Origin: Actinomycetes bacterium
GTDB taxonomy: Bacteria > Actinomycetota > Acidimicrobiia > Acidimicrobiales > JAJZXF01
Direction of reading: 5' to 3'
Assembly: GCA_021791755.1 (NCBI GenBank)
Contig: JAJYWA010000013.1
Location: 1-35,688 of the forward strand
Length of the DNA stretch: 35,688 nucleotides
Of the stretch, positions 8,201-35,241 are shown in pieces (within the stretch, counting starts at the first letter, position 1; every line of letters begins with the position of its first letter). A program made the position numbers and the translations under genes. Below the pieces are notes generated by a model, which saw only the letters and a program-made list of their open reading frames with translations, had not been told where the DNA came from and did not search any database.

Positions 8201-9206
8201 GCGGCAGCTCCCGGGCGGACGCCGCTCGAATATAGCCGGCATCGGAGACGGACACCTCGCTCGGCAGCGGGACGTCTCTGCTGACGATGGCGAGAGCTAC
8301 CGGTGCTTGCAGCTGGAGCGAGATCGAAGAGGTTGTCACGATGCCGCACGCGGCTCCATCGAGCCGGACCTCCGATCCCGGTCGTGGCCATGGCGAGGAA
8401 GGCTCGACCGTCTGTGCCATGTCACTGGACCCGAGCACGAGCCCGCAGATGCGTCGCGGCGCGCGGTTGTGCCTTGCGGCCATCCTTGCCACGAGCTCCT
8501 GGCCGGTATAGCAGCCCTTGGTGAAGCTGACCGTTCGCTCCAGGAGGCCGGTCTCAGCAGGGATGCTCCTCGTGGTGAGCTCCTTTCCCATCGCGGGGAT
8601 CCCCGCTTCGATCCTCACTGCCTCCCAGGCGAGCCAGGGTGACTCTGGCGCGCCCTGGGGAGTGGTCAGGTCGGAGAGGAGCTGCACCCCAGGTGGTACG
8701 GTGGGTGCGGGTCCGAGGATGTCCAGACCGGGAAGGCCCGGCCAGGATGCGTCGACGATGTTCGCGCCACCGGGCTGGTGGGAGCTACCTGGCTCCAGAG
8801 CGCCGTATAGGGAGGTGGTCTCTGGTCCCTTGATGGAGAGGCACTGCCATTCGAGCGGGCTGATCTCGACCCGCGCCCGGATCCGAAAGCGCTCCAGACG
8901 CTCCAGCACGGCGGGTCCCCAGCCAGCCGCGACGTCCAGCACGAGCCAGTCCGGGGCCGCGCGCGTCACCCTGAGATAGGCGTCCAGGCGTCCCTTCGGC
9001 GAAAGCACGAGCGACTCAGCGGAGCCCCCGACGGCCAGGGAAGACAGGTCCTGGGTGAGCTGGCTCTGGAGGAGCTCCAATGAGTCGGGTCCCCGGAGGC
9101 TAACGAGGTCGCGTTCTGAGTAGCATGCCCCCGCTGCTTCTCTCAGGGCGCGGTACGCAGGCGCGAACCCTTCGGGAACTATGAGGTCACCGAGCATCGT
9201 GTCCAT
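8190..9206 (-). CDS. ygfZ: Folate-binding YgfZ/GcvT-like iron-sulfur cluster assembly protein
   Basis: This 338-residue GcvT-fold protein carries the diagnostic YgfZ motif KGCYTGQE (230-237, with the conserved C232). In E. coli, YgfZ uses tetrahydrofolate to maintain certain Fe-S enzymes such as MiaB. An N-terminal segment (SLRGPDSLELLQSQLTQDL, about 36-54) matches the folate-binding GcvT core. The ATG at 9206 overlaps the trpE end by 20 bases, so it is the last gene of the long hem/his/trp run. Several Fe-S enzymes in the window (ThiC, the radical SAM maturase) could in principle be clients, but that is inference. Confidence 0.9.
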   Translation of the reverse strand: MDTMLGDLIVPEGFAPAYRALREAAGACYSERDLVSLRGPDSLELLQSQLTQDLSSLAVGGSAESLVLSPKGRLDAYLRVTRAAPDWLVLDVAAGWGPAVLERLERFRIRARVEISPLEWQCLSIKGPETTSLYGALEPGSSHQPGGANIVDASWPGLPGLDILGPAPTVPPGVQLLSDLTTPQGAPESPWLAWEAVRIEAGIPAMGKELTTRSIPAETGLLERTVSFTKGCYTGQELVARMAARHNRAPRRICGLVLGSSDMAQTVEPSSPWPRPGSEVRLDGAACGIVTTSSISLQLQAPVALAIVSRDVPLPSEVSVSDAGYIRAASARELPLIR

Positions 9207-10827
9207 CGTCGTCCGCAGGCTGTGCTCGCTCGGTGCGCCCGCCGGCCATGGCCCGCAGCCGGGACGCGGTCATTCGCCGCGCAGCTGGAACTGCGGCCAT
9301 CAGGGCGGCGGCCTTGTTCGCGCACTCTTGGTCCTCGGCCTCGGGATCGCTGTCGGCTACGATTCCCGCCCCTGCTTGTACGTGACCCTGGCCATCGGGT
9401 GAGATGAACATGGTCCTGATCGCGATGGCTGTGTCGAGGTTGCCGGAGAAGTCCAGGTACCCGACCACGCCCGCGTACGGTCCGCGCTTGGTCACCTCGA
9501 GATCGTCGATGATCTCCATCGCTCGGACCTTTGGGGCTCCTGACATCGTTCCGGCAGGCAGTGTAGCTCGCAGAACGTCTACAGGGCCCTTGCCGGGAGC
9601 GAGGACCCCATGCACCTGGGACGTAAGGTGCATGACATGGCTATAGCGTTCGACGGTCATGAGCTCATCGACCTCCTCGGTCCCGAAGGAGGAGACCCGA
9701 CCTAGATCGTTCCTGGCTAGGTCGACAAGCATGACGTGCTCGGAGCGTTCCTTAGGGTCCTCTGCGAGCTCGCCGGCGAACCGGGCGTCTTCGATCTCTG
9801 TGGAGCCGCGCCCCCGTGTGCCCGCGATCGGCCGCGAGATGACGATGCCGTCTCTCACTCGCACCATCGGCTCGGGCGACGAGCCCACAACAGTAACCTC
9901 GGGGTGGCGGATGAAGTACATGTATGGGCTCGGGTTCACCTGGCGCAGCACCCGGTACAGGTCGAACGGGTCCGCGTCGAGATCGACGTCGAAGCGCTGC
10001 GACACGACGACCTGGAAGGCGTCTCCGGCAAGGATGTGCTCTTTGGCTGCTTCGACCGCACGTAGGTAAGTGCCCTTCGGCACCGTGCGCCGTGGGGTAA
10101 CGGGAGCCTCTTGCGGGTCGGGCGTGTCTTGGGCGAAGTCCGTTGTCGGGGCAAGCAGCTCGGCCACCAGCCGGTCCAAGCCCTTGCAGGCGCTCTGGTA
10201 AGCGACAGCCAGCTCCGCCGGTCCCCAAGAGGGGTCTGGTACGACGTTCTTGATGAGCACGACTCGCTGGCGCCAGTGATCGAAGGCGGCCAGCTCGCCG
10301 ATCACCGATAGGAGCGCGTCGGGGAGGCCTTGGTCATCTGGCGGCGCTCCCGGGAGCCGTTCGATCTCGCGCACGACGTCATAGCCCAGATAGCCGACGA
10401 TGCCCGAGTGAAGTGGAGGGAGGCCAGGCAGGTTCTCGGATCGACATCGCGAGAGCAGGTGCTCGAGCGTGTCGAGGACGCCGCCTGCCGGGCGGAGCTC
10501 TCGGGAAAGCTCTCCGGTGATCTCTATGGATCCGTCGCGGGCCACCAGCGTAGCCAGAGGTGCGCGCCCTATGAAGGAGTACCTGCCCCAGCGTTCGGCG
10601 CTCTCTGCGGACTCGAAGAGGAAACCCGGATCGTCGCCGACCAGCCTCAGGAACGCCCCCACCGGGGTCACCGTGTCTGCGAGCACCTCCCGCCAGACGG
10701 GCACTACGGTGTGGTCTCTCGCCGATCGTACGAGCTCCTCCAATGTCGATCCAGCATATGAGCCGACTCGAGCCCGCTTCCCTTCCGGCGCTGTGCTGGA
10801 GGTACTTGCGCGGAGATCACCGTACAT
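9187..10827 (-). CDS. trpE: Anthranilate synthase component I
   Basis: TrpE makes anthranilate from chorismate with ammonia supplied by a TrpG partner. At 546 residues it has the N-terminal regulatory region with FLFESAESAERWGRYSFIG (the feedback-inhibition LLES-like element) and the chorismate-binding core with VVVSQRF, NPSPYMYFIR, SRPIAGTRGRG, HVMLVDLARNDLGRV and the late GAGIVADSDPE. It is separated from trpCFBA by ygfZ and a two-component system, and no trpG or trpD lies in the window. It follows hisI after 20 bases. The C-terminus has a short Arg-rich tail. Confidence 0.95.
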   Translation of the reverse strand: MYGDLRASTSSTAPEGKRARVGSYAGSTLEELVRSARDHTVVPVWREVLADTVTPVGAFLRLVGDDPGFLFESAESAERWGRYSFIGRAPLATLVARDGSIEITGELSRELRPAGGVLDTLEHLLSRCRSENLPGLPPLHSGIVGYLGYDVVREIERLPGAPPDDQGLPDALLSVIGELAAFDHWRQRVVLIKNVVPDPSWGPAELAVAYQSACKGLDRLVAELLAPTTDFAQDTPDPQEAPVTPRRTVPKGTYLRAVEAAKEHILAGDAFQVVVSQRFDVDLDADPFDLYRVLRQVNPSPYMYFIRHPEVTVVGSSPEPMVRVRDGIVISRPIAGTRGRGSTEIEDARFAGELAEDPKERSEHVMLVDLARNDLGRVSSFGTEEVDELMTVERYSHVMHLTSQVHGVLAPGKGPVDVLRATLPAGTMSGAPKVRAMEIIDDLEVTKRGPYAGVVGYLDFSGNLDTAIAIRTMFISPDGQGHVQAGAGIVADSDPEAEDQECANKAAALMAAVPAARRMTASRLRAMAGGRTERAQPADDDGHDAR

Positions 10828-10847
10828 GCCGATGGCCGTCCTGCAGG

Positions 10848-11330
10848 CTAGGCGAGCTCGGCGCCGGTCGCAGACGGCGGATGGTCGGTGGCGCCACGGG
10901 CACCACCGTGGTGGTCAGTGATGCCGACATCAACCGGCTTGAAGGTCCTGAAGAAGCAGGACCATTCCCCAGTGTGGCACGCTCCCCTGCCCTGCTGGTC
11001 GACGATGACCAGGATGCAGTCGCAGTCACAGTCGTAGCGGATCTCTCGAACGATCTGGCGGTCCCCTGACGTGTCTCCCTTGCGCCAGTACTCACCGCGG
11101 CTCCGACTCCAGAACCACGTGTGGCCGGTCTCGATCGTCTTGCGCAGCGCGGCCTCGTTCATCCAGGCGAGCATGAGGACGTCTCTTGTCTCGTGATCCT
11201 GGACTATCGCGGGCGCTAGACCATTGCCCGCGTACGACATGGCGGACAGCTGAGCTTCCAGCTCCTCGTGGAAGACCGGCAACGGCTCTGGGAATTCAGC
11301 CGCAGCCTGGGGTTCTGGGTGCTGGTTCAT
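10848..11330 (-). CDS. hisI: Phosphoribosyl-AMP cyclohydrolase
   Basis: HisI opens the adenine ring of phosphoribosyl-AMP in histidine synthesis. Of 160 residues, the core (about 38-130) has AWMNEAAL, TWFWSRSRGEYWRKGDTSG, the metal site D100-C-D-C-D104 with C101/C103, and the zinc ligands C118 and C125 (ACHTGEWSCF). There is no fused HisE domain. The N-terminal 35 and C-terminal 30 residues are not family sequence. The ATG overlaps the stop of the upstream GroES-like gene as ATGA (11327-11330). It is an isolated histidine gene among haem and tryptophan genes. Confidence 0.95.
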   Translation of the reverse strand: MNQHPEPQAAAEFPEPLPVFHEELEAQLSAMSYAGNGLAPAIVQDHETRDVLMLAWMNEAALRKTIETGHTWFWSRSRGEYWRKGDTSGDRQIVREIRYDCDCDCILVIVDQQGRGACHTGEWSCFFRTFKPVDVGITDHHGGARGATDHPPSATGAELA

Positions 11331-11680
11331 AGGTACAGGCCAGTGCCGTTGTCTATGCGATCGGACGCTACGGCGTGGATATCCCGTTCCCGCAGGATCA
11401 GGTAGTCGTCGCCCCTGACCTCAACCTCGTAGCGGTCCTCGGGATTGAACAGCACGTTGTCCCCAGGTTTGATATTGCGTACGTGAGGACCGACTGCGAC
11501 GACCTCGGCCCAGCTCAGGCGTTTGGAGACCTGGGCCGTAGCGGGGATGAGGATGCCCGCCCGTGAGCGCCTCTCGCCTTCGGACTGGGGTACCTGTACG
11601 AGGACGCGATCAGCCAGCATGGTGATCGACTGCTTCGAGGCTTCATTCTCCACATATGAACCGTAGCGCCTCGCGAGCAC
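11327..11680 (-). CDS. GroES-like (Cpn10-fold) protein, actinobacterial second type
   Basis: The 117-residue product contains MLADRVLVQVP, GILIPATA, AEVVAVGPHVR, IKPGDNVLFNPED and DDYLILRERDIHAV, all positions of the Cpn10 barrel. The C-terminus TGLYL matches, from memory, a paralogue common in actinobacteria and distinct from the groEL-linked groES. No groEL is nearby. The start is uncertain: ATG at 11680, a GTG at 11653 or the ATG at 11620 that begins the conserved part are all possible. It sits 15 bases after hemL and overlaps hisI. Whether it caps GroEL is unknown. Confidence 0.85.
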   Translation of the reverse strand: MLARRYGSYVENEASKQSITMLADRVLVQVPQSEGERRSRAGILIPATAQVSKRLSWAEVVAVGPHVRNIKPGDNVLFNPEDRYEVEVRGDDYLILRERDIHAVASDRIDNGTGLYL

Positions 11681-11695
11681 CGGTGGCGCCAGCGC

Positions 11696-13006
11696 TCAAG
11701 GGGGGCTATCTGCGAGCTCCGTGAACACGTCGCGAGCTGCGGTCACCGTCATCTCTATATCGTCATGGCTGTGGGCGAGGCTGGGAAAGGCAACCTCGAA
11801 CGGGCTGGGAGCGAGTGCGATCCCCCTGTGGAGCATCGCGTGGAAGAACCGGGCGTAAAGGTTGCCCTCGCCAGCTCGCCGGGCGCCGTCGAAGTCGCAG
11901 ATCGGCTGGTGGGAGAAGGCGATGCCGAGCAACGAGGAGCATGCGGGCACCTGCACGGCGATCCCGGCGTCGCGGGCTGCCGCGCGCAGGCCGTCTGCGA
12001 GCGCTCGTGTAGTACGGGACAGCTTGGCGTACGACTCTTGGTCCAGTCGGGAGAGCGCTGCAAGCCCAGCAGCCGTGGCGACTGGGTTCCCCGACAGCGT
12101 TCCCGCCTGGTACACGTCTCCGCTGGGCGCGATCATCTCCATGATCTGCCGCCTGCCCCCGAACGCGCCGATTGGAAGCCCTCCGCCGATGACTTTCCCG
12201 AAGCACCAGAGGTCTGGTTGCACGCCAATGAGCTCGGTGTATGATCCACGGCACATGCGAAAGCCGGTGATCACCTCGTCTGCTATGAGCAGGGCGCCCG
12301 CCTCGTCGCACGCTTCGCGCAGGCCTTCGATGAACCCCGGTTGGGGAAGCACCAGGCCCATGTTCGCAGCAACAGGTTCGACGATCACGCAGGCAACATC
12401 CTCGGAGAGGCTTGGCAGCTGGTTGTAGGGAACCACCAGAGTGTCCCCGACCGCGCCTGTCGTTACACCAGCCGAGCTCGAGAGGCCCAGCGTTGCCACG
12501 CCGCTGCCACCTGCTGCCAGCAGCGCGTCCGAGTGGCCGTGGTAACAGCCGGCAAACTTGATCACACCGCTACGGCCGGTGTACGCCCTCGCAAGGCGGA
12601 TGGCGCTCATCGCAGCCTCGGTCCCGCTGGACGTGAGCCGCACCATGTCGCACCCCCTGACGGCATCGCAGATCATCTCCGCTAGGAGCACTTCACGTTC
12701 GGTCGGCGCCCCGTAGCTCGTACCTGCGCTAGCAGCCCTGACCACGGCTTCAGTGACTGCTGGATCTCCGTGCCCGAGTATCACGGCGCCGTACGATTGC
12801 ACGTAGTCGATGTACTCGCGACCATCCGTGTCCCACACGCGTGACCCCGCCGCATGGTCCACGAAGTATGGCGTACCTCCTACGGACGAGAACGCCCGAA
12901 CTGGTGAGTTGACCCCGCCGGGCGTGACACGCCGGGCGCGCTCGAACAGAGACTCGCCCGTTATGCGGCCAAGAGCACCGTCGGCGTCTTGACGTCTGCT
13001 ATCCAT
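11696..13006 (-). CDS. hemL: Glutamate-1-semialdehyde 2,1-aminomutase
   Basis: HemL converts glutamate-1-semialdehyde to 5-aminolevulinate with PLP/PMP, the second step after HemA. The PLP lysine lies in CFGKVIGGGLPIGAFGG (K271 from this start), and the cofactor aspartate in LIADEVITGFR. The conserved TPGGVNSPVRAF starts near residue 28. I prefer the ATG at 13006 because a GGGGGG run lies 5 bases upstream; the frame also has an ATG at 13018. The length of 436 residues is normal. It lies 102 bases after hemB and just before the GroES-like gene. Confidence 0.96.
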   Translation of the reverse strand: MDSRRQDADGALGRITGESLFERARRVTPGGVNSPVRAFSSVGGTPYFVDHAAGSRVWDTDGREYIDYVQSYGAVILGHGDPAVTEAVVRAASAGTSYGAPTEREVLLAEMICDAVRGCDMVRLTSSGTEAAMSAIRLARAYTGRSGVIKFAGCYHGHSDALLAAGGSGVATLGLSSSAGVTTGAVGDTLVVPYNQLPSLSEDVACVIVEPVAANMGLVLPQPGFIEGLREACDEAGALLIADEVITGFRMCRGSYTELIGVQPDLWCFGKVIGGGLPIGAFGGRRQIMEMIAPSGDVYQAGTLSGNPVATAAGLAALSRLDQESYAKLSRTTRALADGLRAAARDAGIAVQVPACSSLLGIAFSHQPICDFDGARRAGEGNLYARFFHAMLHRGIALAPSPFEVAFPSLAHSHDDIEMTVTAARDVFTELADSPP

Positions 13007-13031
13007 TAGACCCCCCATGGGAAGCAGATCC

Positions 13032-13060
13032 GCCTGCGGTCCCCGCCTGCGGTCCCCGCC
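13032..13060. repeat. 13-bp tandem duplication upstream of hemL
   Basis: GCCTGCGGTCCCC is present twice (13032-13044, 13045-13057) plus GCC, in the 102-base gap between hemB and hemL. It lies close to the hemL ribosome-binding site. Confidence 0.85.
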
Positions 13061-13108
13061 TTTGCATGGTTCTCATGTGCCCCGCGCCAGCTGGAGCCCT
13101 GATCCCCG

Positions 13109-14116
13109 TCACGTCATTTCCATTGCAAGATCCTTGGCAAAGTAGGTGAGTATGGGGCTTGCTCCAGCGCGCTTGATAGCCGCCATGTGGTCGCGCATCA
13201 CGGCCGGTCCATCGATCCAGCCCAGTTGCGCACCTGCTTTGATCATCGCGTACTCGCCACTGACCTGGAACGCAGCAACCGGTATGTCTACCGCTGCGCG
13301 TACTTTCGCTATCACGTCTAGGCAAGGAAGCGCTGGCTTGACCATCACGATGTCCGCACCCTCTTCCACGTCGAGGGCCACCTCTGTGAGGGCTTCGCGC
13401 ACGTTGCGAAAGTCTTGCTGGTAGGCGCTGCGGTCTCCCGATCCCGATCCCGATCCGGCGCCGCCGGCTATGCGCACCTGGGCTGCATCTCTGAACGGCG
13501 CGTACATAGCGGAGGCGTACTTGGCCGAGTACGCGAGGATTGCCACATCGGCTGCAGCGTTCTCGTCGAGAGCGGATCGTACGGCGGCAACCTGGCCGTC
13601 CATCATCCCGCTCGGCGCCACGATATCGGCGCCTGCACGTGCCTGCGAAACAGCTATCTCGGCGTAGATCTCGAGAGTCGCATCGTTGTCGATTGCACCG
13701 TCGCTAGTGAGGACACCGCAGTGGCCATGATCTGTGTACTCGTCCAGGCACAGGTCCGCTATGAGCACCAGCGAGCTCCCGAGCTCTTGGCGAAGCTCGC
13801 CGAGGGCACGTTGTACGATGCCGTCGGGACTTCGCGCCCCTGAACCGCTGGCGTCCTTATGCTCAGGGATTCCGAAGACGATGACAGCAGGAACGCCGAG
13901 CGTTTGGAGCTCGGTCGCCTCGGCGACCAGAGACTTCATGGTGTGCTGGAGCACTCCAGGCATCGAGGGCACCGGAACCGGCTCGGTGATCCCATCCCGG
14001 ACGAACAGCGGCGCGACGAGGTCGTTGACCGACACAGCGGTCTCTGATACGAGGTTCCTCATGGCGGCGGAGCGTCGCAGGCGCCTTGGCCGTGTGGCGG
14101 GGAAGCTCATATGCAC
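13109..14116 (-). CDS. hemB: 5-aminolevulinate dehydratase (porphobilinogen synthase)
   Basis: HemB condenses two 5-aminolevulinates to porphobilinogen. The two active-site lysines are K199 (AYSAKYAS) and K260 (VMVKPALP). The metal loop reads DLCLDEYTDHGHCG, with cysteines at 123 and 133 and aspartate at 125. This keeps two of the three zinc cysteines and is, from memory, the usual actinobacterial form. A Gly-Ser repeat (GSGSGSG, about 221-227) is inserted where the family has a short loop before GDRSAYQ. It is encoded by a 6-bp tandem repeat. The gene starts 98 bases after the end of the cobA-hemD fusion, so it is probably in the same transcription unit. Confidence 0.96.
   Translation of the reverse strand: MHMSFPATRPRRLRRSAAMRNLVSETAVSVNDLVAPLFVRDGITEPVPVPSMPGVLQHTMKSLVAEATELQTLGVPAVIVFGIPEHKDASGSGARSPDGIVQRALGELRQELGSSLVLIADLCLDEYTDHGHCGVLTSDGAIDNDATLEIYAEIAVSQARAGADIVAPSGMMDGQVAAVRSALDENAAADVAILAYSAKYASAMYAPFRDAAQVRIAGGAGSGSGSGDRSAYQQDFRNVREALTEVALDVEEGADIVMVKPALPCLDVIAKVRAAVDIPVAAFQVSGEYAMIKAGAQLGWIDGPAVMRDHMAAIKRAGASPILTYFAKDLAMEMT
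13436..13456. repeat. 6-bp tandem repeat in hemB
   Basis: TCCCGA occurs three times in a row followed by TCC. It encodes the Gly-Ser repeat in the HemB loop near residue 221. Confidence 0.85.
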
Positions 14117-14214
14117 AGTCTACGGCTCGAATAGTGAGTGCCGTGATCGGAGACGCATTGCGGCAGCGAAGTCCCGTACCGCATGCGTGATCTTGATACA
14201 CGATCCAGCTTTTG

Positions 14215-15837
14215 TCATGCAGTTGTTTTGCCAGTGGATCGAGGTTGTCGATGCATTAACTCCTGTGCGTGCTCGATCAGCGCTGCAACTAGCCCGTCTG
14301 TGGTGTGGGCGCTGGCGACGACGTCGATCTCGACTCCTCGCGCTGTCGCAGCGTCGGCAGTGGTCTGGCCGATGCAGGCGACGACTGGCCGGGGATGTGT
14401 TGCCCGATCGGCTTGTAGCCAGGGACCCCGGGTTCCTCGGCGCCCCGATCCCTCAGCGTCGACGCCTGGTCTCAAAGGCCGCTCCGGCAGCCTTCCTGAG
14501 TCTCGAAGCTCCGCATATCTTTCCACCGCCGAAGGTGAGCAGAAGGTGATCGCATCGGCTCTGGCAAGCTCCGCCAGTTGGTTGCTGGCCGGCACTATGG
14601 GTTCAATTCTGTACGTCTCTACCTCGTCGACGATCCAACCAGAGGCGCGCAGCGCTTCGGGTAGGGTCCGTCGTGCTATAGAAGAACGCGGGAACAGCGC
14701 CCGGGTTGTGTCGCTGGGGGACGTGTCTTGGGCAAGTGCGGACGCAAGCTCCGCAGCGGTGTGGCCGGACGGTACGAGATCTGGCGCCAGGCTGTGCCTG
14801 AGCAACTCCTCTGTGGTTGCCGGGCCGACGGCGGCGATCTTCGTGCCGGCCAGCGATCGGGCATCTCTCAGCAGGGAAAGGAAGTGTGCAGCAGCGTTCG
14901 CCGAGGTGAACACGACCCAGTCGTAGGAGCTCACCGAGCGGGCGGCGTCGAGCAGCTCCTGGCTGGCGCTTGCCGGCGGCACCACGGACACGAGCGGAAC
15001 GAGTAGCGGCTCTGCTCCTGATGCGGCCAGCTTGGCTGCGAGGTCAGGAGCCTGAGTCGCATCCCTGGTCACCGCAACCGACCATCCGAACAGGGGCCGC
15101 TTCTCGACCCAAGCTATATCGAGCGCGGCGACATCCCCGATGACGATGGTTGCCGGAGCATCGAGGTCGGTCGAAGCGAGGCGCCCGAGCGTGGTCCTCA
15201 CGCACCGTTGCGCAGGCCAGGTGCCCCACTCGACCGCCATCACCGGTGTAGATGCATCACGGCCGGCGTCAATGAGCTTGCCTGCTATGGCGCCTCGGTT
15301 TGCAACGGCCATGAGCAGGACGATCGTGCCACCCAGTTTTGCTGCCGCGTCCCAGTCGATGCCACCTGCGTCGAGCTCGCCTGACCGTCCGGTCAGCACC
15401 GTGAAGGAGGTCGATACCCCCCGATGAGTCAAGGGAACGCCGGCGTAAGCTGGAACTGCAATGGCCGAGCTCACGCCGGGCACGATCTCGAAGTCTATCC
15501 CAGCTTCTTTGAGGGCCATCGCCTCCTCGCCACCGCGCCCGAGGACGAGCGGGTCGCCGCCTTTCAGACGGACGACGCGGAGGCCTGTACGAGCCTTGGA
15601 GATGAGGAGCGAGTTGATCTCGTTCTGGTCGAAGTGCGCTCCCGGCCTCTTGCCGACATCGACTGTTTCCACAGAGGCTGGTGCAATCGCGAGCAAGCGC
15701 GGATGCACCAGCCGATCGTGCACGACGACATCTGCCTGGGAGAGGACCTCCGCGCCTCTGAGCGTGATCAAACTTGGGTCACCTGGCCCAGCGCCGACCA
15801 GGTAGACCGATGGCTGCCGTCTGGCGCTGGACCTCAT
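14215..15837 (-). CDS. cobA-hemD: Uroporphyrinogen-III methyltransferase / uroporphyrinogen-III synthase fusion
   Basis: This 540-residue fusion has an N-terminal SUMT domain (about 8-245) with VYLVGAGPGDPSLITLRGAEVL, the VVRLKGGDPLVLGRGGEE motif and PVMAVEWGT. The C-terminal HemD domain (about 255-540) has DWVVFTSANAA, ITFCSPSAVE and ACIGQTTADAA. The synthase cyclises hydroxymethylbilane to uroporphyrinogen III; the methyltransferase leads to precorrin-2 for sirohaem or cobalamin. The ATG at 15837 overlaps the hemC stop as ATGA (15834-15837). Between the SPSAVERY and VACIGQTTA motifs lies an insert of about 30 low-complexity Arg/Gly/Pro residues that is not typical for HemD. Confidence 0.94.
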   Translation of the reverse strand: MRSSARRQPSVYLVGAGPGDPSLITLRGAEVLSQADVVVHDRLVHPRLLAIAPASVETVDVGKRPGAHFDQNEINSLLISKARTGLRVVRLKGGDPLVLGRGGEEAMALKEAGIDFEIVPGVSSAIAVPAYAGVPLTHRGVSTSFTVLTGRSGELDAGGIDWDAAAKLGGTIVLLMAVANRGAIAGKLIDAGRDASTPVMAVEWGTWPAQRCVRTTLGRLASTDLDAPATIVIGDVAALDIAWVEKRPLFGWSVAVTRDATQAPDLAAKLAASGAEPLLVPLVSVVPPASASQELLDAARSVSSYDWVVFTSANAAAHFLSLLRDARSLAGTKIAAVGPATTEELLRHSLAPDLVPSGHTAAELASALAQDTSPSDTTRALFPRSSIARRTLPEALRASGWIVDEVETYRIEPIVPASNQLAELARADAITFCSPSAVERYAELRDSGRLPERPLRPGVDAEGSGRRGTRGPWLQADRATHPRPVVACIGQTTADAATARGVEIDVVASAHTTDGLVAALIEHAQELMHRQPRSTGKTTA

Positions 15838-16862
15838 TGTTGCAATGGTCCGATGTCCGCGAGGATCGCATTGCCACCGTGCTCTTCGACCAGGGCATGC
15901 GCTACTTCGACGCCGAGTGCTCTTGCGACGGCGATGCACGCCGCCAGTGGGGAGGACTTAGGGAGCGTTGCCGACGCCTTGTGCCGTAGCACCCTCCGGC
16001 CATCCGCGCTCGCTATGAGGCATTCCAGAAAGAGCGAGTGGGCGAGAGGGTTTCCCAGGCGGTGCTCGGAGCCGCTTCCGGCCGGGCTGGTCGTGAGATC
16101 ACCGGCGTCCGTGTGGGAGATTCGCGCGTACGCAGCAACTGGAAGGTTGCACCCGCCTCCAACCTCGCGCAGGAAGGCCCTTTCGCTCTCGAGACAGAGC
16201 CGTGATCCGGGATGGTCAATTCTTTCCGCGAGACGGCGCATCGCGCCGTCCTCACTTCGGCACTCGACGGCAAGTGCGCCCTGTCCGGCTTGGGGCAGCA
16301 TGATTGCAGGCGCCAGGATCTCATTTGGGCGGACCGGCATGCCCAGCCGTTCCAAGGCCGCCGTGGCGAGCACCGTCGCGTCAAAGCGACGGGCCTTGCG
16401 TAGGCGCGTGCCGATGTTGCCTCGCAGTTCGGCGAAGGTGAGATCAGGCCGTAGCCAGGCCAGCTGAGCTCTCCTGCGAATAGATCCCGTAGCTATCAGC
16501 CCACCTGGTGGGATGTCGTCCAAGCGCGAGCCGATCAGGGCATCCCGAGGGTCCCTCCTTTTTGGCACGGCGGCTATGCAAAGATCCTCCGAGCCGAGCG
16601 AAGGCAGATCCTTCGCAGAGTGCACAGCGATGTCAGCTCTGTGATCCAGGACGGCTGCCTGAACCTCCTTTACGAAGACACCCTGGCCGCCAATGGCCGC
16701 AAGAGTCAGATCAGCCCTCGTGTCACCGGCGGTGTCGAAGGTCAACAGCTCGACCGCCAGCTCTGAGGATGCCGAACGCAGGAGATCTGCTACTTCACTG
16801 GCCTGCTGGAGGGCCAGCGGGGATCGCCGCGTGGCGATGCGTGCCACGCAGGGGCTACTCAT
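15834..16862 (-). CDS. hemC: Porphobilinogen deaminase (hydroxymethylbilane synthase)
   Basis: HemC polymerises four porphobilinogens. It is 342 residues from the ATG at 16862, which overlaps the hemA end by 8 bases. The N-terminal RIATRRSPLALQQA, VHSAKDLP, ATGSIRRRAQL and RGNIGTRLRK bind the substrate acids. The dipyrromethane cofactor cysteine is C238 in GGGCNLPVAAY. A stretch of about 20 residues (TTSPAGSGSEHRLGNPLAH, about 257-275) is inserted in the C-terminal domain before LECLIASADG. The frame is open to 16913, but conserved sequence begins only after the chosen ATG. Confidence 0.95.
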   Translation of the reverse strand: MSSPCVARIATRRSPLALQQASEVADLLRSASSELAVELLTFDTAGDTRADLTLAAIGGQGVFVKEVQAAVLDHRADIAVHSAKDLPSLGSEDLCIAAVPKRRDPRDALIGSRLDDIPPGGLIATGSIRRRAQLAWLRPDLTFAELRGNIGTRLRKARRFDATVLATAALERLGMPVRPNEILAPAIMLPQAGQGALAVECRSEDGAMRRLAERIDHPGSRLCLESERAFLREVGGGCNLPVAAYARISHTDAGDLTTSPAGSGSEHRLGNPLAHSLFLECLIASADGRRVLRHKASATLPKSSPLAACIAVARALGVEVAHALVEEHGGNAILADIGPLQQ

Positions 16863-18216
16863 CACCTGGTTCGAGGTCGAACAGGTCCCGTAGCGCTTCG
16901 GAGAGCCGATCACTCGCGCCGGACCTGCCAGCCTCTTTTAGCTTCACGGTGGGGCGATGAAGGAGCTTGCTCAGGATTGCCCGGGTAAGAGACTCGACCA
17001 ACTCGCGCTCGCGCTCGCCCATCGCATCAAGCTGGGAGCTGTGCCGGTCGATCTCCGAGCGCCGGATCTCTTCAGCTTGCTGGTGGAAGGCAGCCACGAG
17101 GGGGGCCACGTCCCGCTCGCGCCTCGAGAGCCCGTAGCGGACGACCTCCTCTGCAACGATTGAGCGGGCACGGTCCACCTCGGCTTCACGACCGGCCATC
17201 TGCGCGTTCACGAACAAGCGGAGCCTGTCCAGGTCGATGAGGGTCACAGAGGCGACCTTGCCGGCCTGGGAGTCCACGTTGCGGGGTACGCCGAGGTCCA
17301 CTACCAGAAGGGGGCGGTCTGGGCGCTGGGACATGGCCTCTTCGATCGCGGCAGCGCTCAGCACGAATGACGGGGTGGCCACCGACACCAAGACCACGTC
17401 TGCTGCAGCGAGCTCGTCTTGCAAGGCCGAGAGGCTGCGCCATTGGGCCCCCATCTGCTCGGCAAGCAGGGCGGCTCGCTCTACCGTTCGGCTGATGACG
17501 ACGATCTCCGGTCCACGGGCATGCTCCGAGAGGCCCCTTGCAGAGGGCTCCGTGGCGTGGGCGACCGGGTCGGCCGGGCTCTGCTGGGAGCTCGTCTTGG
17601 ATGCGAGCGCCGTTGCCATTCCCTTGCCCATCGCTCCGGCTCCGAGCAGTAGGACCCGACGGCCGTCAAGACCTTCCGCAAGGCGATCAGAAGCCAGGGC
17701 AACCGCAGCGTGTGAGAGAGATGTCATACCCCGTGCGATCGCGGTCTCGGATCGAACCTGCTTGCCGACCATGACGGCATGCCTGAAGAGGCTTGAAAGC
17801 ACCTGCCCGCACGTCTTCTCAGCGCGTGCAACGTCCCATGCGCGGCGCACCTGCCCGAGCACCTCGCCCTCACCGAGAACCGGCGAGCTCAAGCCGGCCG
17901 CAACCTCGAAGAGGTGCGCTGCGGCGGCGTCTTCGTACTTGCAGTACATGAGATCGGCGATGTCCTCGAACGAAGTGCCCAAGAGGCGTGTGAACAGGTC
18001 GTATATCTGGGCAACTCCGTCGTGGAACCGGTCCACTACGGCGTAGACCTCGGTGCGCATGCAGGTCGAGAGGATCACCACCTCCCGTAGCGCGGAGCAC
18101 TCGGCCAGCTCTTGAAGCGCCTTGATGGTCTCCCCATTGCTCAGCGTGGTGCGTTCGAACACGTCGATCGACGTCGAGCTCTGGTTCAAGCCTACGACGC
18201 AGAGAGGCTCAGCCAA
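16855..18216 (-). CDS. hemA: Glutamyl-tRNA reductase with an inserted loop
   Basis: HemA reduces glutamyl-tRNA(Glu) to glutamate-1-semialdehyde, the committed step of tetrapyrrole synthesis. I chose the TTG at 18216: AGGAG lies 7 bases upstream, and it puts the catalytic cysteine at C52 (ILSTCMRTEVYA), near the family value of 50. The NADPH domain has LLLGAGAMGKGMA, VISRTVERA and VDLGVPRNVD, and the dimerisation domain is at the C-terminus. About 30 residues (206-236: Ser/Pro/Ala/His-rich) are inserted after the Gly-rich loop before EIVVISRT. This segment is absent from the family as I know it. The start overlaps the end of the large membrane-protein gene by 8 bases. Confidence 0.95.
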   Translation of the reverse strand: MAEPLCVVGLNQSSTSIDVFERTTLSNGETIKALQELAECSALREVVILSTCMRTEVYAVVDRFHDGVAQIYDLFTRLLGTSFEDIADLMYCKYEDAAAAHLFEVAAGLSSPVLGEGEVLGQVRRAWDVARAEKTCGQVLSSLFRHAVMVGKQVRSETAIARGMTSLSHAAVALASDRLAEGLDGRRVLLLGAGAMGKGMATALASKTSSQQSPADPVAHATEPSARGLSEHARGPEIVVISRTVERAALLAEQMGAQWRSLSALQDELAAADVVLVSVATPSFVLSAAAIEEAMSQRPDRPLLVVDLGVPRNVDSQAGKVASVTLIDLDRLRLFVNAQMAGREAEVDRARSIVAEEVVRYGLSRRERDVAPLVAAFHQQAEEIRRSEIDRHSSQLDAMGERERELVESLTRAILSKLLHRPTVKLKEAGRSGASDRLSEALRDLFDLEPGDE

Positions 18217-21200
18217 GGTCGCTCTCCTCTTGCACCTCGTGCCAAGTGGCTCGCGCGATGCCGCGACGTCGTCTGTCAAGAGCCCAGGCTCCGCAGATCA
18301 GCGCCGCGATCAGTGCGACGCCGACTACGCTCGTGATCATCCACGGCGCCCAGACAGCCTGAGGCCCGTAGACCACGGAAGCCGTCGTGGCTGGCCCGGC
18401 AGGGATGATGGCGCCGGTCCAGAAGCCGTCGACGCAGATGGATGGCGTGCTTGCGCCTTTCGATCCATCGATGGCCACCTGCCAGCCTGCCTGGCATGGC
18501 ATGTCCGTCGTGAGCAGCTCAGGAGCTCTTCTTGCTGGCAAGCCGAGAGAGAAGGAGGTCGCGGACTGTCCCTCGATGGCGACCGGCAGGGAGATTGGAG
18601 TACTCGTTGGGGTGCGCTGAGATGCTTGTGCAGGCAGCGCCGGCGTGCCAGACGGCGCAGGCACCCGGAGACCGACAGGCGCCTGTGGCCAGAGCCCGAC
18701 CCGGCCGGCTTGGCTCGGCGTCAGCAAAGTTACGAGGTTGAGCGCGTTCGATCCCGTGTAATTCTCGATGCGAACCGTGTTGTCTCCACGGCGTCCAGAG
18801 AAGCTGCCTGCCACCAACCACCTGAAGCGTGTTCGCGTGGCGACGGTGCGAACGCTGCTAGCGGATGAGCCGTTGACGCTGATGTTGATGCCTCCCCCGA
18901 CTGGCGAGGTAAGCGTTCGTACGACGGCAAGGTAAGCGCCGGATCTTTTCAACGTGAAGTTCGCGGTCATGCTCACCTGACCCTGGGTGGTCGCGCTTGC
19001 CATCACTACGCCCTGGCCCATGTCGAAGAAACCGTTGTCGGCAAGGCCGGCGTTGATGACAGCAGAGTCCCATCCGCCGAAGCCGGAGTCCATCGGCGCC
19101 ATCGTTCGCATTGCGTTCCAATGCGTGGTCGAGGTGGCGTAGTTGTCTGTCTGGGCTGGCGCTATGACGCTTGCCACGCAGTGCGGATCTCCGAGGACCT
19201 GGGACAGCCCGAGAACCGCTGGCGAGCAAGACATCCCTGCTGAAACCGAGCCGGATGCCATCGCGTCAATGCCTGCCTTTGCAGCTCCGGGAAGCAGGAG
19301 CTGCGATCGGACTACGTAGCTCGTTGCGGGCGCGAGTCGTGTCAATGCGGACACGAGGCTTCCGGACCACATCGAAGGCGCACGCTTGGACAGGGTGAAG
19401 CCGCTCCGAGGCCCTGGAACCTGAAAAAGATAGACGCCGCTGCCGTAGGAGCCCACCTGTCTGGTGACCTTCCTAAGGTTCGTGAGCTGGGCGTTGCCCG
19501 TCGGCGCGGCGCCGACGATGTCGTTGTGGAATAGCACATATTTGATGTCGGCCTCCTGCAGCAGTCGGAGGAACGCGTTGGGGTCGCCGATGGCCAAAGT
19601 CTGCGCCCACCAGGCGAACTTCTGCAGCGGCGTCGTCATGTGATAATAGCCGATAGTCCTTGCTGGGATGCTCGCTGCCACTCCGAACCCGGTGATCCTC
19701 GATGCGTTCCAGGTGTAGGAGGCCTCGTCGTGAAGGCTGTTCTGGCCGAGGCCCGCGTAGTACGGGGCAAGGTCGAGGACCTGTCCCTGGCCCATGTGCA
19801 GGCTGGCAATTTTGCCGAAAGCACGACTGTACGCGGTGGGCAGGGGGATCGGTTTGTAGTAGTAGTCCAGAATTCTCACCGCGTTCACGCCGCTCGTGAT
19901 GCTGAACGCACCGAGGATCACCAGTGCGGCTACCGACCTGGCCGCGATCGGAGCGAAGGCCGCTATCGGGCGTCGCTCCCGACGTGCTCGCCACCGTCTT
20001 GCTACCCAAGCTGCCGCCTTGTGCCCAACGATGGTGAGTCCCACGGCCAGGAACACGGGTTCAGCGACCCACCACAGGTAAGAGGCTTTTTCGGGCACGC
20101 GGAGGACCCATCCGAGGGGCATGTTGAGAACGAGGAAGTAGTAGGAGTGCCTGAGCTTAGGGACTGCAGGCCACGCAGAGATGAGCATTGCCACTATTCC
20201 CGCCGGGTAGCACCATCTGAGCAGAAGTGAGCGGGGTCGGTAGCGGTAGGTCACGAAGAGCGCCAGGGCTATTGCAAGCACCGGCGCCGCAGCGACGAGA
20301 ACAGTCCGAAGGACTCCGGAGCCGATGATCACCGGGTGGTACCAGTTCACCCAGAGGTTCCTGCCGATAAGGACGTCGAACATCGAGCTGTGAGCACTGA
20401 GCGTCTTTAGCATGTCGACGTTGAGCTTGTAGCCCGGGGTGATGAGCCCTTCGGTGTTCAAGATGAACCCTGGCATCACCCAGTACAGGTTGGCCACGAA
20501 GGTGATGCCTACGAAGTAGGCAAACCGCTTCAGCAGTTTCTTCGTCGCCTCACGACGCCCGACTGCGTTCAGCATTGCCTTGCGTTCCTGCCAGACGACC
20601 ATGACCAGTAGGACCAGGCAGGCCATCGCCGTGAAGATCGTGTACTGGGGGGTTGATGCCATGATCGAGAACAACAGCACGGACGAGAGGAGCGCCAGCT
20701 TGCCGCCGTCCTTCAGGTGCTTGTAGAGCAGGAGAGCCAGCGCGGGCGTGCCGGCATAAGCAAGGTAGTAGTAAGGAGCCTGGTACTGCTGGGCGGCCCA
20801 CGGCGAGAACGCGAAGAGGAGACCCGCGATGACGGCGGTGGCTTCTCCGAGACGCGAGCTGCCCAGCCCGATCTCACGCAGGACTCTCCGTACTAGGAAG
20901 TACATTGCATACGCTGCGAGAAGTAGGCTCGCGAGCAGGTAAAGCTTGTACATTGTCGACAGAGAGATGCCAAGTAGGTGCGCTCCCCAGAGGAACGGCG
21001 TCGTTGCCCAGAACCGGTCGATAGATTCGAGGTTCGAGGTCTGCGAGTACTGGTTCCACATCGGTACGAACCTGGCCAGATAGTTGGTTAGGTTCACCGG
21101 ATAGCTCATGTCCCCGTGCATCGGCAGGCCTCGAGCGACGGAGTCAGGGAGCCAGATGGCGAGCACGACCGCCCCTAGGACGACTTTGGGCCACGATCGC

Positions 21201-21331
21201 TTTGGCATGCCTGCAGGAGCTCCATGCGCGGCGGCGGCTCCAGGCTCGTCCAGCTTGTCTGGGTTCGCCTGGTCCGGGTGCGCCGTCGAACGCTCGACGA
21301 TCGAGGACTTCTCGGGGATCTTGAGGGTCAT
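18209..21331 (-). CDS. Very large multi-pass membrane protein, possibly GT-C-like glycosyltransferase
   Basis: This 1040-residue protein starts at an ATG with GGGAG 3 bases upstream. After a charged N-terminus (about 45 residues) there are roughly 12 hydrophobic segments up to about residue 480. The first extracytoplasmic loop contains an acidic GDMSYP motif, as in GT-C enzymes. A long non-membrane part (about 490-985, Thr/Ser/Gly-rich, likely outside) follows, then one C-terminal helix (WAPWMITSVVGVALIAALI) and a basic tail. This layout recalls actinobacterial GT-C arabinofuranosyltransferase-like or YfhO-like proteins. That is an architectural comparison only, and the substrate is unknown. 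It lies 13 bases after the LmbE-like gene and overlaps hemA. Confidence 0.75.
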   Translation of the reverse strand: MTLKIPEKSSIVERSTAHPDQANPDKLDEPGAAAAHGAPAGMPKRSWPKVVLGAVVLAIWLPDSVARGLPMHGDMSYPVNLTNYLARFVPMWNQYSQTSNLESIDRFWATTPFLWGAHLLGISLSTMYKLYLLASLLLAAYAMYFLVRRVLREIGLGSSRLGEATAVIAGLLFAFSPWAAQQYQAPYYYLAYAGTPALALLLYKHLKDGGKLALLSSVLLFSIMASTPQYTIFTAMACLVLLVMVVWQERKAMLNAVGRREATKKLLKRFAYFVGITFVANLYWVMPGFILNTEGLITPGYKLNVDMLKTLSAHSSMFDVLIGRNLWVNWYHPVIIGSGVLRTVLVAAAPVLAIALALFVTYRYRPRSLLLRWCYPAGIVAMLISAWPAVPKLRHSYYFLVLNMPLGWVLRVPEKASYLWWVAEPVFLAVGLTIVGHKAAAWVARRWRARRERRPIAAFAPIAARSVAALVILGAFSITSGVNAVRILDYYYKPIPLPTAYSRAFGKIASLHMGQGQVLDLAPYYAGLGQNSLHDEASYTWNASRITGFGVAASIPARTIGYYHMTTPLQKFAWWAQTLAIGDPNAFLRLLQEADIKYVLFHNDIVGAAPTGNAQLTNLRKVTRQVGSYGSGVYLFQVPGPRSGFTLSKRAPSMWSGSLVSALTRLAPATSYVVRSQLLLPGAAKAGIDAMASGSVSAGMSCSPAVLGLSQVLGDPHCVASVIAPAQTDNYATSTTHWNAMRTMAPMDSGFGGWDSAVINAGLADNGFFDMGQGVVMASATTQGQVSMTANFTLKRSGAYLAVVRTLTSPVGGGINISVNGSSASSVRTVATRTRFRWLVAGSFSGRRGDNTVRIENYTGSNALNLVTLLTPSQAGRVGLWPQAPVGLRVPAPSGTPALPAQASQRTPTSTPISLPVAIEGQSATSFSLGLPARRAPELLTTDMPCQAGWQVAIDGSKGASTPSICVDGFWTGAIIPAGPATTASVVYGPQAVWAPWMITSVVGVALIAALICGAWALDRRRRGIARATWHEVQEESDLG

Positions 21332-31748: not shown

Positions 31749-31804
31749 TACTGGTGGAGACGTAGGCTCGCTCAGGGTTGTCGACGAGATGAAGGAGGCC
31801 CTCT

Positions 31805-32029
31805 GTGGTACCGGAGCGACCTGAAGTGATCGCCTATCGAAAGGCGTGTAGGACGACTGGCACGGGTCTGTCTCACTACGTGCTCTTGACCAATGGACCG
31901 CGCAAGGTTTCCCCGCGAGGCGCTACGGAGGCATCCCAGGGTGCAGTGTCGCAAAGTGCAGTGTCCCACGGTTTGGAGTCCCAAGGTTTGACGCCACCGC
32001 CTATGGCGGCTGCTGGCGGTCGTACCTGA
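31805..32029 (+). CDS. Small peptide, candidate precursor of the adjacent radical SAM maturase (CbpA-like?)
   Basis: This 74-residue product starts at a GTG. A near-perfect Shine-Dalgarno (AAGGAGG, 31792-31798) lies 6 bases upstream, which strongly supports translation. The N-terminal half has RPEVIAYRKACRTTGTGLSH followed by YVLLTNGPRK, with a single cysteine. The second half is four degenerate five-residue repeats (SQGAV, SQSAV, SHGLE, SQGLT), then PPPMAAAGGRT. It ends 16 bases before the radical SAM gene. Size, position and strand fit a RiPP precursor. From memory the AYRK-C-GTGLSHY motif recalls the CbpA family, but I could not check this. Which part is leader and which is core is unknown; the repeats look like a recent, genome-specific expansion. 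Confidence 0.68.
   Translation: MVPERPEVIAYRKACRTTGTGLSHYVLLTNGPRKVSPRGATEASQGAVSQSAVSHGLESQGLTPPPMAAAGGRT
31934..31993 (+). repeat. Four 15-bp degenerate repeats in the small peptide gene
   Basis: Four in-frame units of 15 bases encode SQGAV, SQSAV, SHGLE and SQGLT. The first two share GCAGTG and the last two share GGTTTG, which suggests two rounds of duplication. Confidence 0.8.
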
Positions 32030-32045
32030 GCGGGAGCGCGCTGCT

Positions 32046-33416
32046 GTGCCGTCTGAAGCGGGCGCTGGCGTGTCCCTCGCGCCCGTGAACATAGGCCATG
32101 GGCAGTACACGGCGCTTGTAGAGCCGAGCACCGCGTTCTGGTCGCTCGTCCGCAGCGACCGGGCTGGTGACATGATCTGCGATCCGTCCTTCTTGGGCCG
32201 GGTTGAGGCACGCATCGGAGAGTTTGCGACCGAGATGGAGCGCCTCCGCTATGGCCTGTTGCCTTCGGCCGTCTATTTCAACCCCACCGAACGGTGCAAT
32301 ATGAACTGCACGTACTGCTACTTGCCGGAGGGGATGCGTAGGCGTGGCGCCCATATGTCCAGGGAGGACATCTTCCGAGCACTCGTGGAGTTGCGCGGTT
32401 ACTTTCGGAGGACGCTTCCCGAGGGCGATATGCCGCAGGTGATCTTTCACGGTTCCGAGCCGATGATGAACCGAGCTGCTGTCTTTGAAGCGATCGACAG
32501 CTTCAGCGAAGACTTCGTGTTCGGCGTCCAGACGAATGGGACTCTCTTGGACTCCGAGGCGATCGAGTACCTGACTTCCAGGGAGGTGAGCATCGGCCTG
32601 TCTCTCGACGGTCCGTACTCAGAGGTCGCAGATCGTACCAGGCACACCTTCTCGATGCACGGCGTCTTCGATCGGGTGGTACGCGTTCTCGAAGCGTTGC
32701 GCGGCTACGAGAGCTACTCCGTGATATGCACCGTGACTCTGGAGAACCTGGACCACTTGAGCGAAATGGTTGATCTCCTCCACGCGCTCGAGGCGCCTAC
32801 GTGCATGTTGAACCCGGTCAGGTGCACGTTGGAAGGGGGTCGGAAGGCACGTCCTTCGGACTCCGCTCTCGCCGCGGCATACGTGCAGGCCCTGGATCGA
32901 AGTTACGAGCTGTACCAGGAGAGCGGGCGGAAGCTCGTCGTGGCCAACTTCGCCAACATCGTGCTCGCGATGATCGCGCCGACTGCCCGGCGGCTCATGT
33001 GCGACATCTCACCATGCGGGGGCGGCAGGTGCTTCTTCGCTGTTGATGCACACGGCGACTTGTTCCCGTGCAGCGAATTCATTGGTCTCGAGGGCTTTCG
33101 AGGCGGCAACCTCTTCAGGGGCGACCTGCAAGGCTGCTTTGACAGCAGTGCGTTCCGCTCCGTCACGCAGAGGGCTGTCGAGATGATCGAGCCGTGTCGT
33201 AGCTGCGTGTTTCGTCACTTCTGTGGGGCCCCATGCCCGGCCGAGGCTTTCGAGCTCAACGGCGCCACAGCGAGCCGGGGCGCATTCTGTGATTTCTACC
33301 AGGAGCAAGCCCGCTACGCGTTGCGGGTGATCGCGGATGGTCGTGAAGATGCGTTCCTTTGGGACGGCTGGGACCGCGACGTGGTGACCACCTTTGACGT
33401 CAATTCCATCAGTTAG
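32046..33416 (+). CDS. Radical SAM/SPASM peptide-modifying maturase (CbpB-like?)
   Basis: This 456-residue protein starts at a GTG with GGGAG 9 bases upstream. The radical SAM cluster motif CNMNCTYC (C84, C88, C91) is intact. FHGSEPMMN is the usual GGEP-like SAM contact, changed to HGSEP, and QTNGTLLD and GLSLDGP follow in order. The SPASM domain has all ligands: C319, C324, C329 and C342, then CRSCVFRHFCGAPC (C384, C387, C393, C397) and C415, giving two auxiliary 4Fe-4S clusters. SPASM enzymes of this kind install cross-links or other changes in ribosomal peptides. The upstream 74-residue gene is the obvious substrate. Similarity to CbpB is recollection only. Its 3' end overlaps the MFS gene by 8 bases. 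Confidence 0.9.
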   Translation: MPSEAGAGVSLAPVNIGHGQYTALVEPSTAFWSLVRSDRAGDMICDPSFLGRVEARIGEFATEMERLRYGLLPSAVYFNPTERCNMNCTYCYLPEGMRRRGAHMSREDIFRALVELRGYFRRTLPEGDMPQVIFHGSEPMMNRAAVFEAIDSFSEDFVFGVQTNGTLLDSEAIEYLTSREVSIGLSLDGPYSEVADRTRHTFSMHGVFDRVVRVLEALRGYESYSVICTVTLENLDHLSEMVDLLHALEAPTCMLNPVRCTLEGGRKARPSDSALAAAYVQALDRSYELYQESGRKLVVANFANIVLAMIAPTARRLMCDISPCGGGRCFFAVDAHGDLFPCSEFIGLEGFRGGNLFRGDLQGCFDSSAFRSVTQRAVEMIEPCRSCVFRHFCGAPCPAEAFELNGATASRGAFCDFYQEQARYALRVIADGREDAFLWDGWDRDVVTTFDVNSIS

Positions 33417-35241
33417 AGCGCGTAGGAGCGCCTTGCGGGTGCAGGACGTTCGCCGCTCGCCGGTCGGGAACGATCGCGTCCAGACGACGACGGCTGGTCT
33501 CCACGCCGGCTGCGCCTATCGCCACGGCAGCCGCGAGCATCGCCACGGCTGAGAGCGTCGCAGCGCCGGTCATGCTCGGAGGCGATATAGCGGCCACGCT
33601 CAGAGCGAGCGCGAGGACCCCACCAAGCTTGCTTGCCCCAGCAGCGAGGCCTGCGCCCGTAGACCGCATTCGCGTTGGGTACACTTCAGCGCTGTAGGGG
33701 CACAGTACCGAGATAGAACCCCACATCGAGATGAGAAGGACTACGAGCAACGCCTCGAGGAGGGCAGGATCGGTGGCGACCTTTGACCCGACCACCGCGA
33801 AGAGGCCGAGAGCTGCTGTGCACGAGGCCGCGAAGAACGCCATGGCCGCTTTGGAGCTCCGCCCGTACAGCCAGGCCGCAAAGACTGCGCCTGGGATCGA
33901 GAAAGCTGCCGCTTCGGACAGCACTGCAGTTACCTGCGCCTCGTGGATGGCCTTGTGAGCGCTGGCAAGATCGATCGGCAGCCAGACTATGAAGCCGAAG
34001 CTGACCACTCCCCACGCGAGACCGTACACCGACAATGCCGATGTGAGCCCTCTGAAAGGGCGTCGGAAGAGGCCGGAGAGGCCAAGGGCCTGGTCGTCCA
34101 CAGCGCCGCCCACAGCTCCCGAGGCTGTAGCGAACGCTGGAACAGGAGCCGTGCTGGGCGTGTTGGGCGAGCCCTCGACCACCGCGGCGCCGAATGCCTT
34201 CATGATCGCGAATGCCTCATCATAGCGGCCCTTGGCTATCAGGAACCTCGGCGACTCGGGGATGAGCTGGTTTATGCCTATTAGCGCAAGGCCGGTCGGG
34301 ATTCCGAGGAACCACATGATCCGCCAGTTGAACAGTGGCACGAGCCAATGTGCGGAGACGCTTGCAAGCAGGAACCCAGCGGCTGTGCCCACTCCTGCTA
34401 CGAGCACGACCACCTGTCCGCGCAGCCTGGATGGCACCGTCTCCACCAGCAGCGAGTACGCGATGGGTAAGAACCCGCCGACGGCGAGGCCCATGACGAA
34501 GCACATTGACTCGTTTTCCCAGAATGCAGGCATTGCGCCGCAGGCCGATGACGCGATGAAGATCATGCACGCGAGAAGTATTGACGCTCTTCGCCCCATA
34601 CGGTCGCCGAGGTAGCCCCAGATGACCGACCCGAGAGCCGTTCCGAGGATGCCGAAAAAAGGCAGCAAGGCGACTGGTGCGTGGCCGAGGACTTGGTGCG
34701 CCGGCGAGCTGAGATCGTACTCTTTGGCGACACCGGGCAGGATGAAGGTGAAGGTATAGGGCTTCAATGTGTCGATGGCGATTGCCACGACCAAGGCGGA
34801 CATGAGCCGGAGGTGGGCGCCTCCGATGCGGGTGCTGTCCAGGGCCCGGATCTGGACGTCGGCTGGATGATCGCCGTTCGCTCCAGTCGCTACGGTTGCT
34901 CCAGCGGCACGCCCTTGTTCAGCTGGCGCCTGGTCATGTGCATGGGAAAGCCCTTGCGACCACGCGAGCGACGGGTCGTTCGCCGCCCCACCGTTCGCCG
35001 CCCCACCGTTCGCCGCCCTACGGTAGAGCCCGTGGACCACTGCGGCGAGCCCTGCAGCCATCAGAGCCATGCCAATGATCATCTCCGGGTCCATCGGCAT
35101 CCCGTTGAGCACGTAATGATCACGGTGGGCGTCGATGTACATCGGCAACTGGAGGAGAACCCCTATCGTCACCGCAGCGGCGCCAGACCAGAACGACAGC
35201 GGGTGGCTAAAACTGGCTCGCATGTTGCGCGCCTGACGCAT
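33409..35241 (-). CDS. MFS transporter with an added two-helix N-terminal domain
   Basis: This 610-residue protein starts at an ATG at 35241. Residues 17-35 and 52-73 form two extra membrane helices around a loop with YIDAHRDHYVLNGMPMDPEM. A hydrophilic linker (about 74-145) begins with NGGAA repeats encoded by a 15-bp tandem repeat. The MFS core follows (12 helices, about 146-585). It has motif A GYLGDRMGRR after helix 2, PESPRFLIAKGRYDEA after helix 6 as in sugar or organic-acid porters, and YPTRMRSTGAG in the C-half. The substrate is unknown. It converges with the radical SAM gene; a role in exporting its product is possible but unproven. Confidence 0.88.
   Translation of the reverse strand: MRQARNMRASFSHPLSFWSGAAAVTIGVLLQLPMYIDAHRDHYVLNGMPMDPEMIIGMALMAAGLAAVVHGLYRRAANGGAANGGAANDPSLAWSQGLSHAHDQAPAEQGRAAGATVATGANGDHPADVQIRALDSTRIGGAHLRLMSALVVAIAIDTLKPYTFTFILPGVAKEYDLSSPAHQVLGHAPVALLPFFGILGTALGSVIWGYLGDRMGRRASILLACMIFIASSACGAMPAFWENESMCFVMGLAVGGFLPIAYSLLVETVPSRLRGQVVVLVAGVGTAAGFLLASVSAHWLVPLFNWRIMWFLGIPTGLALIGINQLIPESPRFLIAKGRYDEAFAIMKAFGAAVVEGSPNTPSTAPVPAFATASGAVGGAVDDQALGLSGLFRRPFRGLTSALSVYGLAWGVVSFGFIVWLPIDLASAHKAIHEAQVTAVLSEAAAFSIPGAVFAAWLYGRSSKAAMAFFAASCTAALGLFAVVGSKVATDPALLEALLVVLLISMWGSISVLCPYSAEVYPTRMRSTGAGLAAGASKLGGVLALALSVAAISPPSMTGAATLSAVAMLAAAVAIGAAGVETSRRRLDAIVPDRRAANVLHPQGAPTRSN
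34978..35019. repeat. 15-bp tandem repeat in the MFS linker
   Basis: GTTCGCCGCCCCACC occurs twice (34978-34992, 34993-35007), followed by a third copy that is complete for 11 bases and then diverges. On the coding strand it gives the NGGAA repeats between the two-helix domain and the transporter core. Confidence 0.9.

Follow-up and report, generated by a model that had tools for sequence, protein, structure and literature searches.

The window analysed here, a stretch of 35,688 nucleotides from an acidimicrobial genome (contig JAJYWA010000013.1), carries a short peptide gene just upstream of a gene encoding a radical SAM/SPASM enzyme. A first-pass annotation had proposed that the two form a RiPP system, and had noted a resemblance to the CbpA and CbpB families. 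The locus thus raises two questions: whether the genes truly are a precursor and its maturase and, if so, what the modified peptide would be for.

A precursor-maturase pair of a catalogued family

The peptide gene, cbpA (31805..32029 on the + strand, stop codon included), encodes 74 amino acids from a GTG start codon. This start is preceded, at a spacing of 6 nt, by the Shine-Dalgarno sequence AAGGAGG (31792..31798, +), and AAGGAG is found at a spacing of about 6 nt in most relatives as well. After a gap of 16 nt follows cbpB (32046..33416, +), which encodes a maturase of 456 amino acids. The first-pass annotation had reported this arrangement at the same place, and its further observations also held when we checked them, namely that the peptide contains one Cys and a GTGLSHYVL segment, that the enzyme is complete with its full Cys sets, and that no protease or ABC exporter adjoins the pair. 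The suggested family identity proved right by curated models. CbpA scores 39.4 bits against TIGR04164 over residues 8-30 (cut-off 35), and CbpB scores 671 bits over the whole of TIGR04163 (equivalog cut-off 375), while the next-best NCBIfam models for CbpB, PapB (138 bits, cut-off 340) and DynA (137 bits, cut-off 450), are far below their cut-offs.

The names of the two models, cobo_pep and rSAM_cobopep, suggest that their curators had noticed a connection to cobalamin, and the former probably stands for ‘cobalamin operon peptide’. The family is thus present in NCBIfam, but a search of the literature available to us, which also covered the combination of a riboswitch with a RiPP, found no published product and no paper naming the CbpA/CbpB families or the motif. 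The window pair truly adds a member to this catalogued, uncharacterised family: it passes the model cut-offs and has the same gene order and conserved core, whereas its genus differs from the family in lacking a riboswitch (see below) and in having a long, unconserved CbpA tail.

Using a scan of genome contigs and several family surveys, we collected 18 distinct loci, including that in the window, from at least three phyla. They comprise Actinomycetota (the window, L003, L004, L012, L029, L163, L164 and L165), Syntrophales and other records titled Deltaproteobacteria (L005-L009, L011 and L122) and Bacillota (L010, L151 and L152). Although the proposed pairing could have been called into question by homologous enzymes without such a peptide, a CbpA is encoded just upstream of CbpB in all 18 loci. 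In many relatives cbpA and cbpB overlap by one base, the last of the cbpA stop codon, as would be expected if their translation is coupled. The distribution of the pair is sporadic (5 of 395, 7 of 155, 3 of 113 and 1 of 40 genomes in the groups surveyed), and it is therefore an accessory system that cannot be essential for B12. In viral contigs we found only radical SAM proteins with 20-29% identity, and a viral origin was thus rejected.

The conserved parts of CbpA and CbpB

Over the 18 loci, the core of CbpA can be written as [YF]RKxCxxxG[TVI]GLSHY[VIL]L. In the first 15 loci, the RK, C, GTGLSHY and final L residues do not vary at all, and their codons change synonymously, which is the codon-level conservation that a genuine coding sequence should show among relatives. 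The Thr of the core is replaced in only two divergent members, by Val in L163 and by Ile in L165, and this position is therefore always occupied by a beta-branched residue. GTGLSHY, which the first-pass annotation had suggested as a possible recognition or modified part, lies in the part of the peptide that is conserved among them. In the window, the portion matching the family model is EVIAYRKACRTTGTGLSHYVLLT (31826..31894, +), and this is likely the region that is recognized and modified.

Comparison with the sister genome L003 separates this region from the remainder of the peptide. The first 32 codons of cbpA are constrained (dN 0.18, dS 0.75), while the C-terminal part (31901..32026, +) is only 38% identical, with a dN of about 0.9, and evolves freely. 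Since precursors outside the Actinomycetota consist of only 35-40 amino acids and have no such tail, the tail of the window peptide is an extension, and it is probably dispensable or removed. We also looked for tandem repeats in the tail, and found none.

For cbpB, the same comparison gives a dN of 0.19 and a dS of 1.71, close to the values for recA (0.14 and 1.59), which indicates that cbpB is under strong purifying selection, like recA. Alignment with relatives assigns C84, C88 and C91 to the CxxxCxxC motif, and C329/C342, C384/C387/C393/C397 and C415 to the SPASM set; C319 and C324 are also conserved. These Cys motifs are invariant in the alignment except in L012 (9824-11362, +), in which the SPASM Cys corresponding to window C387 is Gly in an otherwise well conserved enzyme. 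In L163 (5941-8656, -), CbpB is apparently split over two ORFs, possibly by a frameshift or in a decaying copy. Because both model cut-offs are passed, CbpA is present in all 18 loci, and the core is invariant with synonymous codon variation, comparison of the sequences confirms cbpA and cbpB as a precursor-maturase pair, far beyond what chance would produce.

Proposed chemistry of the modification

In the mechanism we propose, CbpA would be produced from a strong ribosome-binding site, and CbpB, as a SPASM radical SAM enzyme, would modify a conserved 20-residue segment of it. The only Cys of CbpA is followed by a Gly at Cys+4 and by Thr, Val or Ile at Cys+5, and the residues at these two positions are therefore the predicted acceptors. 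By analogy with known maturases, CbpB probably installs one radical crosslink, most likely a thioether that joins the invariant Cys to the residue at Cys+4 or Cys+5 with loss of 2 H.

The solved structure that best matches CbpB is that of CteB, a thioether maturase of SCIFF peptides (ranthipeptides; PDB 5WGG and 5WHY; Foldseek E 2e-13, hmmsearch E 7e-30). In substrates of CteB-type enzymes, the crosslink is reported to join Cys32 and Thr37 in vitro, i.e. to lie at Cys+5, or to join Cys32 and Thr34 via a gamma carbon (PMC8326336), and CbpA likewise has a Cys and a downstream Thr. However, CbpB scores only 109 bits against the SCIFF maturase model TIGR03974, far below its cut-off of 425, and the SCIFF peptide has six Cys residues where CbpA has one. 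The PapB ranthipeptide maturases (NF047865) are matched by all 17 CbpB proteins tested, with the score of the window enzyme well under the cut-off, and CbpA does not have the repeated Cys-X3-Asp of PapB substrates. An argument against a thioether is that DynA, the dynobactin maturase, which makes a different crosslink, scores almost as well as PapB.

The structure predicted for full-length CbpB is of moderate confidence (pLDDT 71.5), and its N-terminal domain is modelled as beta-beta-beta-helix-helix. A PqqD-like RRE in this domain was not supported, as a Foldseek search with the isolated domain gave no match at E<=0.001 and Pfam gave no relevant match.

Cobalamin riboswitches and operons in relatives

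Nothing in the window sequence itself points to B12, and this context emerged only from the relatives. In 14 of the 18 loci, a cobalamin riboswitch (RF00174 in Rfam) lies upstream of cbpA on the same strand, with the end of the aptamer 123-213 nt from the YRK codon. Ten riboswitch-bearing genomes, with about 29.5 Mb in total, have 35 riboswitches among the matches listed, and we estimate from this density that a same-strand riboswitch would occur within 400 nt by chance with a frequency of about 2e-4 per locus.

The four loci in which no riboswitch was found are L005, L122, the window and L003, of which the last two belong to one genus. The L005 contig ends just upstream of cbpA, and a cluster encoding CbiG, CbiQ and a tetrapyrrole methylase adjoins the pair. 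In L122, the pair is embedded in the operon cobT-cobS-cbiB-aminotransferase-PP-ATPase-cbpA-cbpB-DUF71-btuF-btuC-btuD. The DUF71 protein of this operon contains ENGEYH, the signature motif of the DUF71-B12 subgroup, a predicted B12-salvage family (PMC3541065), and is found in the btuFCD/cbiB context reported for that family; it is a neighbour of CbpB, not a homologue, and is not found beside cbpAB in the window. Downstream of cbpB in L004 come BluB (155.9 bits, cut-off 150) and then CobT, and CobT is also found after cbpB in L009 and L011. The presence of the riboswitch and of cobalamin operon neighbours thus gives good support to the conclusion that cbpAB belongs to the B12 regulon in these relatives. 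Since B12 riboswitches usually turn their genes down when the vitamin is abundant, expression of cbpAB is expected at low B12.

Some details of these loci may be recorded here. The cobT genes after cbpB in L004 (about 12000-12470, +) and L011 (2161-2601, +) appear truncated or frameshifted, and each of these genomes has a full cobT elsewhere. The PP-ATPase directly before cbpA in L122 (5108-6094, -) is asparagine-synthase-like (PF00733). In L164, a protein that by eye resembles the LarC nickel-insertion protein is encoded convergently with cbpB (2075-3436, -).

No detectable riboswitch in the genus of the window

In the window, RF00174 has no match at the gathering score, and none at E<=10 near cbpA. 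No B12 riboswitch was detectable in either genome of the genus, with 96 candidates scored per genome, and no B12 gene adjoins cbpAB in the window or in L003. We considered a degenerate riboswitch upstream of cbpA, but rejected it, as there is no B12 match at E<=10 in either locus; the DNA upstream of cbpA shows little alignable similarity between the two before the gene start. Since the enzyme tree nests this genus among riboswitch carriers, the riboswitch was most simply lost there.

CobT and BluB are kept in both genomes of the genus (420 and 218 bits, respectively, in that of the window). By eye, the window genome also has ORFs resembling CobN, CobQ, CobB and CobS, and there are PF07685 matches. 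With neither a riboswitch nor a B12 gene nearby, the B12 role of the window copy rests on homology, and we infer that this role is unchanged in the lineage.

Among the other genes of the window is a tetrapyrrole precursor cluster, all on one strand (9187-18279, -), that consists of trpE, hisI, hemL, hemB, a fusion of hemD with a uroporphyrinogen methyltransferase gene, hemC and hemA, and a GCV_T-domain gene adjoins trpE. Some 14 kb separate the cluster from cbpA, and the two are not in tight linkage. An ORF of 1040 amino acids (18209-21331, -), flanked by hemA and a gene for a PIG-L deacetylase, has no Pfam match at E<=1e-5. Convergent with cbpB is a gene for an MFS transporter of 610 amino acids with a long N-terminal extension (33409-35241, -), which is conserved in L003.

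What the modified peptide might do

In the role that we favour, modified CbpA would stay in the cytosol and, under B12 shortage, aid the salvage of corrinoids (B12) or the assembly of the nucleotide loop. Four genomes that carry the pair (G400, G402, G403 and G444) do not have strong CbiA/CobQ matches, which, in MAGs, may be explained by gaps in assembly. BluB is above its cut-off only in Actinomycetota carriers; the system is therefore not tied to aerobic DMB synthesis, and we rejected a role in DMB synthesis only. Together, these patterns argue for salvage or loop assembly over ring or DMB synthesis. An intracellular product is favoured because no conserved exporter or protease accompanies the pair. 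The cytosolic location and the role are inferred from these patterns, and the crosslink from likeness to other maturases. It counts against the explanation as a whole that no peptidase is linked to cbpAB. Taken as a whole, an explanation in which the pair makes a singly thioether-linked, cytosolic product for B12 salvage or assembly, and in which the window lineage has lost the riboswitch, seems to us probable. On the more specific proposal that this radical-modified RiPP acts directly in corrinoid salvage or assembly, and has escaped riboswitch control in the window lineage, our judgement is evenly balanced.

B12 riboswitches also control B12-independent isozymes, and the modified peptide could instead, in the manner of PQQ or mycofactocin, be a small cofactor with a redox or catalytic function, used by an enzyme made under B12 shortage, such as one in a B12-independent replacement pathway. 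The short precursors outside the Actinomycetota, a core invariant across phyla and containing a Tyr, and the standalone riboswitch-cbpA-cbpB units in several loci would all fit such a cofactor. However, no peptidase, dehydrogenase or PqqD-like protein is adjacent, and the informative neighbours are genes for B12 synthesis and uptake rather than replacement enzymes, so we consider a cofactor unlikely.

A secreted scavenger of metal or corrinoids (a cobaltophore or corrinophore) would also be expressed under B12 limitation. Its metal could be bound by the Cys, His and Tyr of the core, and CbiQ in L005 and BtuFCD in L122 would be suitable neighbours. We find this improbable too, as the peptides have no apparent signal peptide, are strongly basic and look cytosolic, and are accompanied by neither a dedicated exporter nor a conserved receptor gene.

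The enzyme class and its thioether-type relatives could further suggest an ordinary antimicrobial sactipeptide or ranthipeptide, but the absence of an immunity gene, protease or exporter, a core that barely differs between members of at least three phyla, and riboswitch control in relatives make this very doubtful. Finally, although an open frame extends into the aptamer region in some Actinomycetota loci, we can practically dismiss the idea that CbpA, rather than being a substrate, serves the riboswitch solely as a regulatory leader ORF, since its core is kept at the amino-acid level while codons change synonymously, and cbpA with its own Shine-Dalgarno sequence is retained in a genus that has no riboswitches.

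To return to the favoured role in salvage or assembly, the B12 context gives a peptide of unknown function a testable role in corrinoid metabolism, and suggests low B12 as the growth condition that would induce it. The comparison also leaves two adjacent residues as the likely acceptors of the crosslink. The genus of the window provides a natural experiment, in which the genes have been retained and the riboswitch is gone. If the proposed role is true, this would be, to our knowledge, the first RiPP with an assigned part in B12 metabolism.
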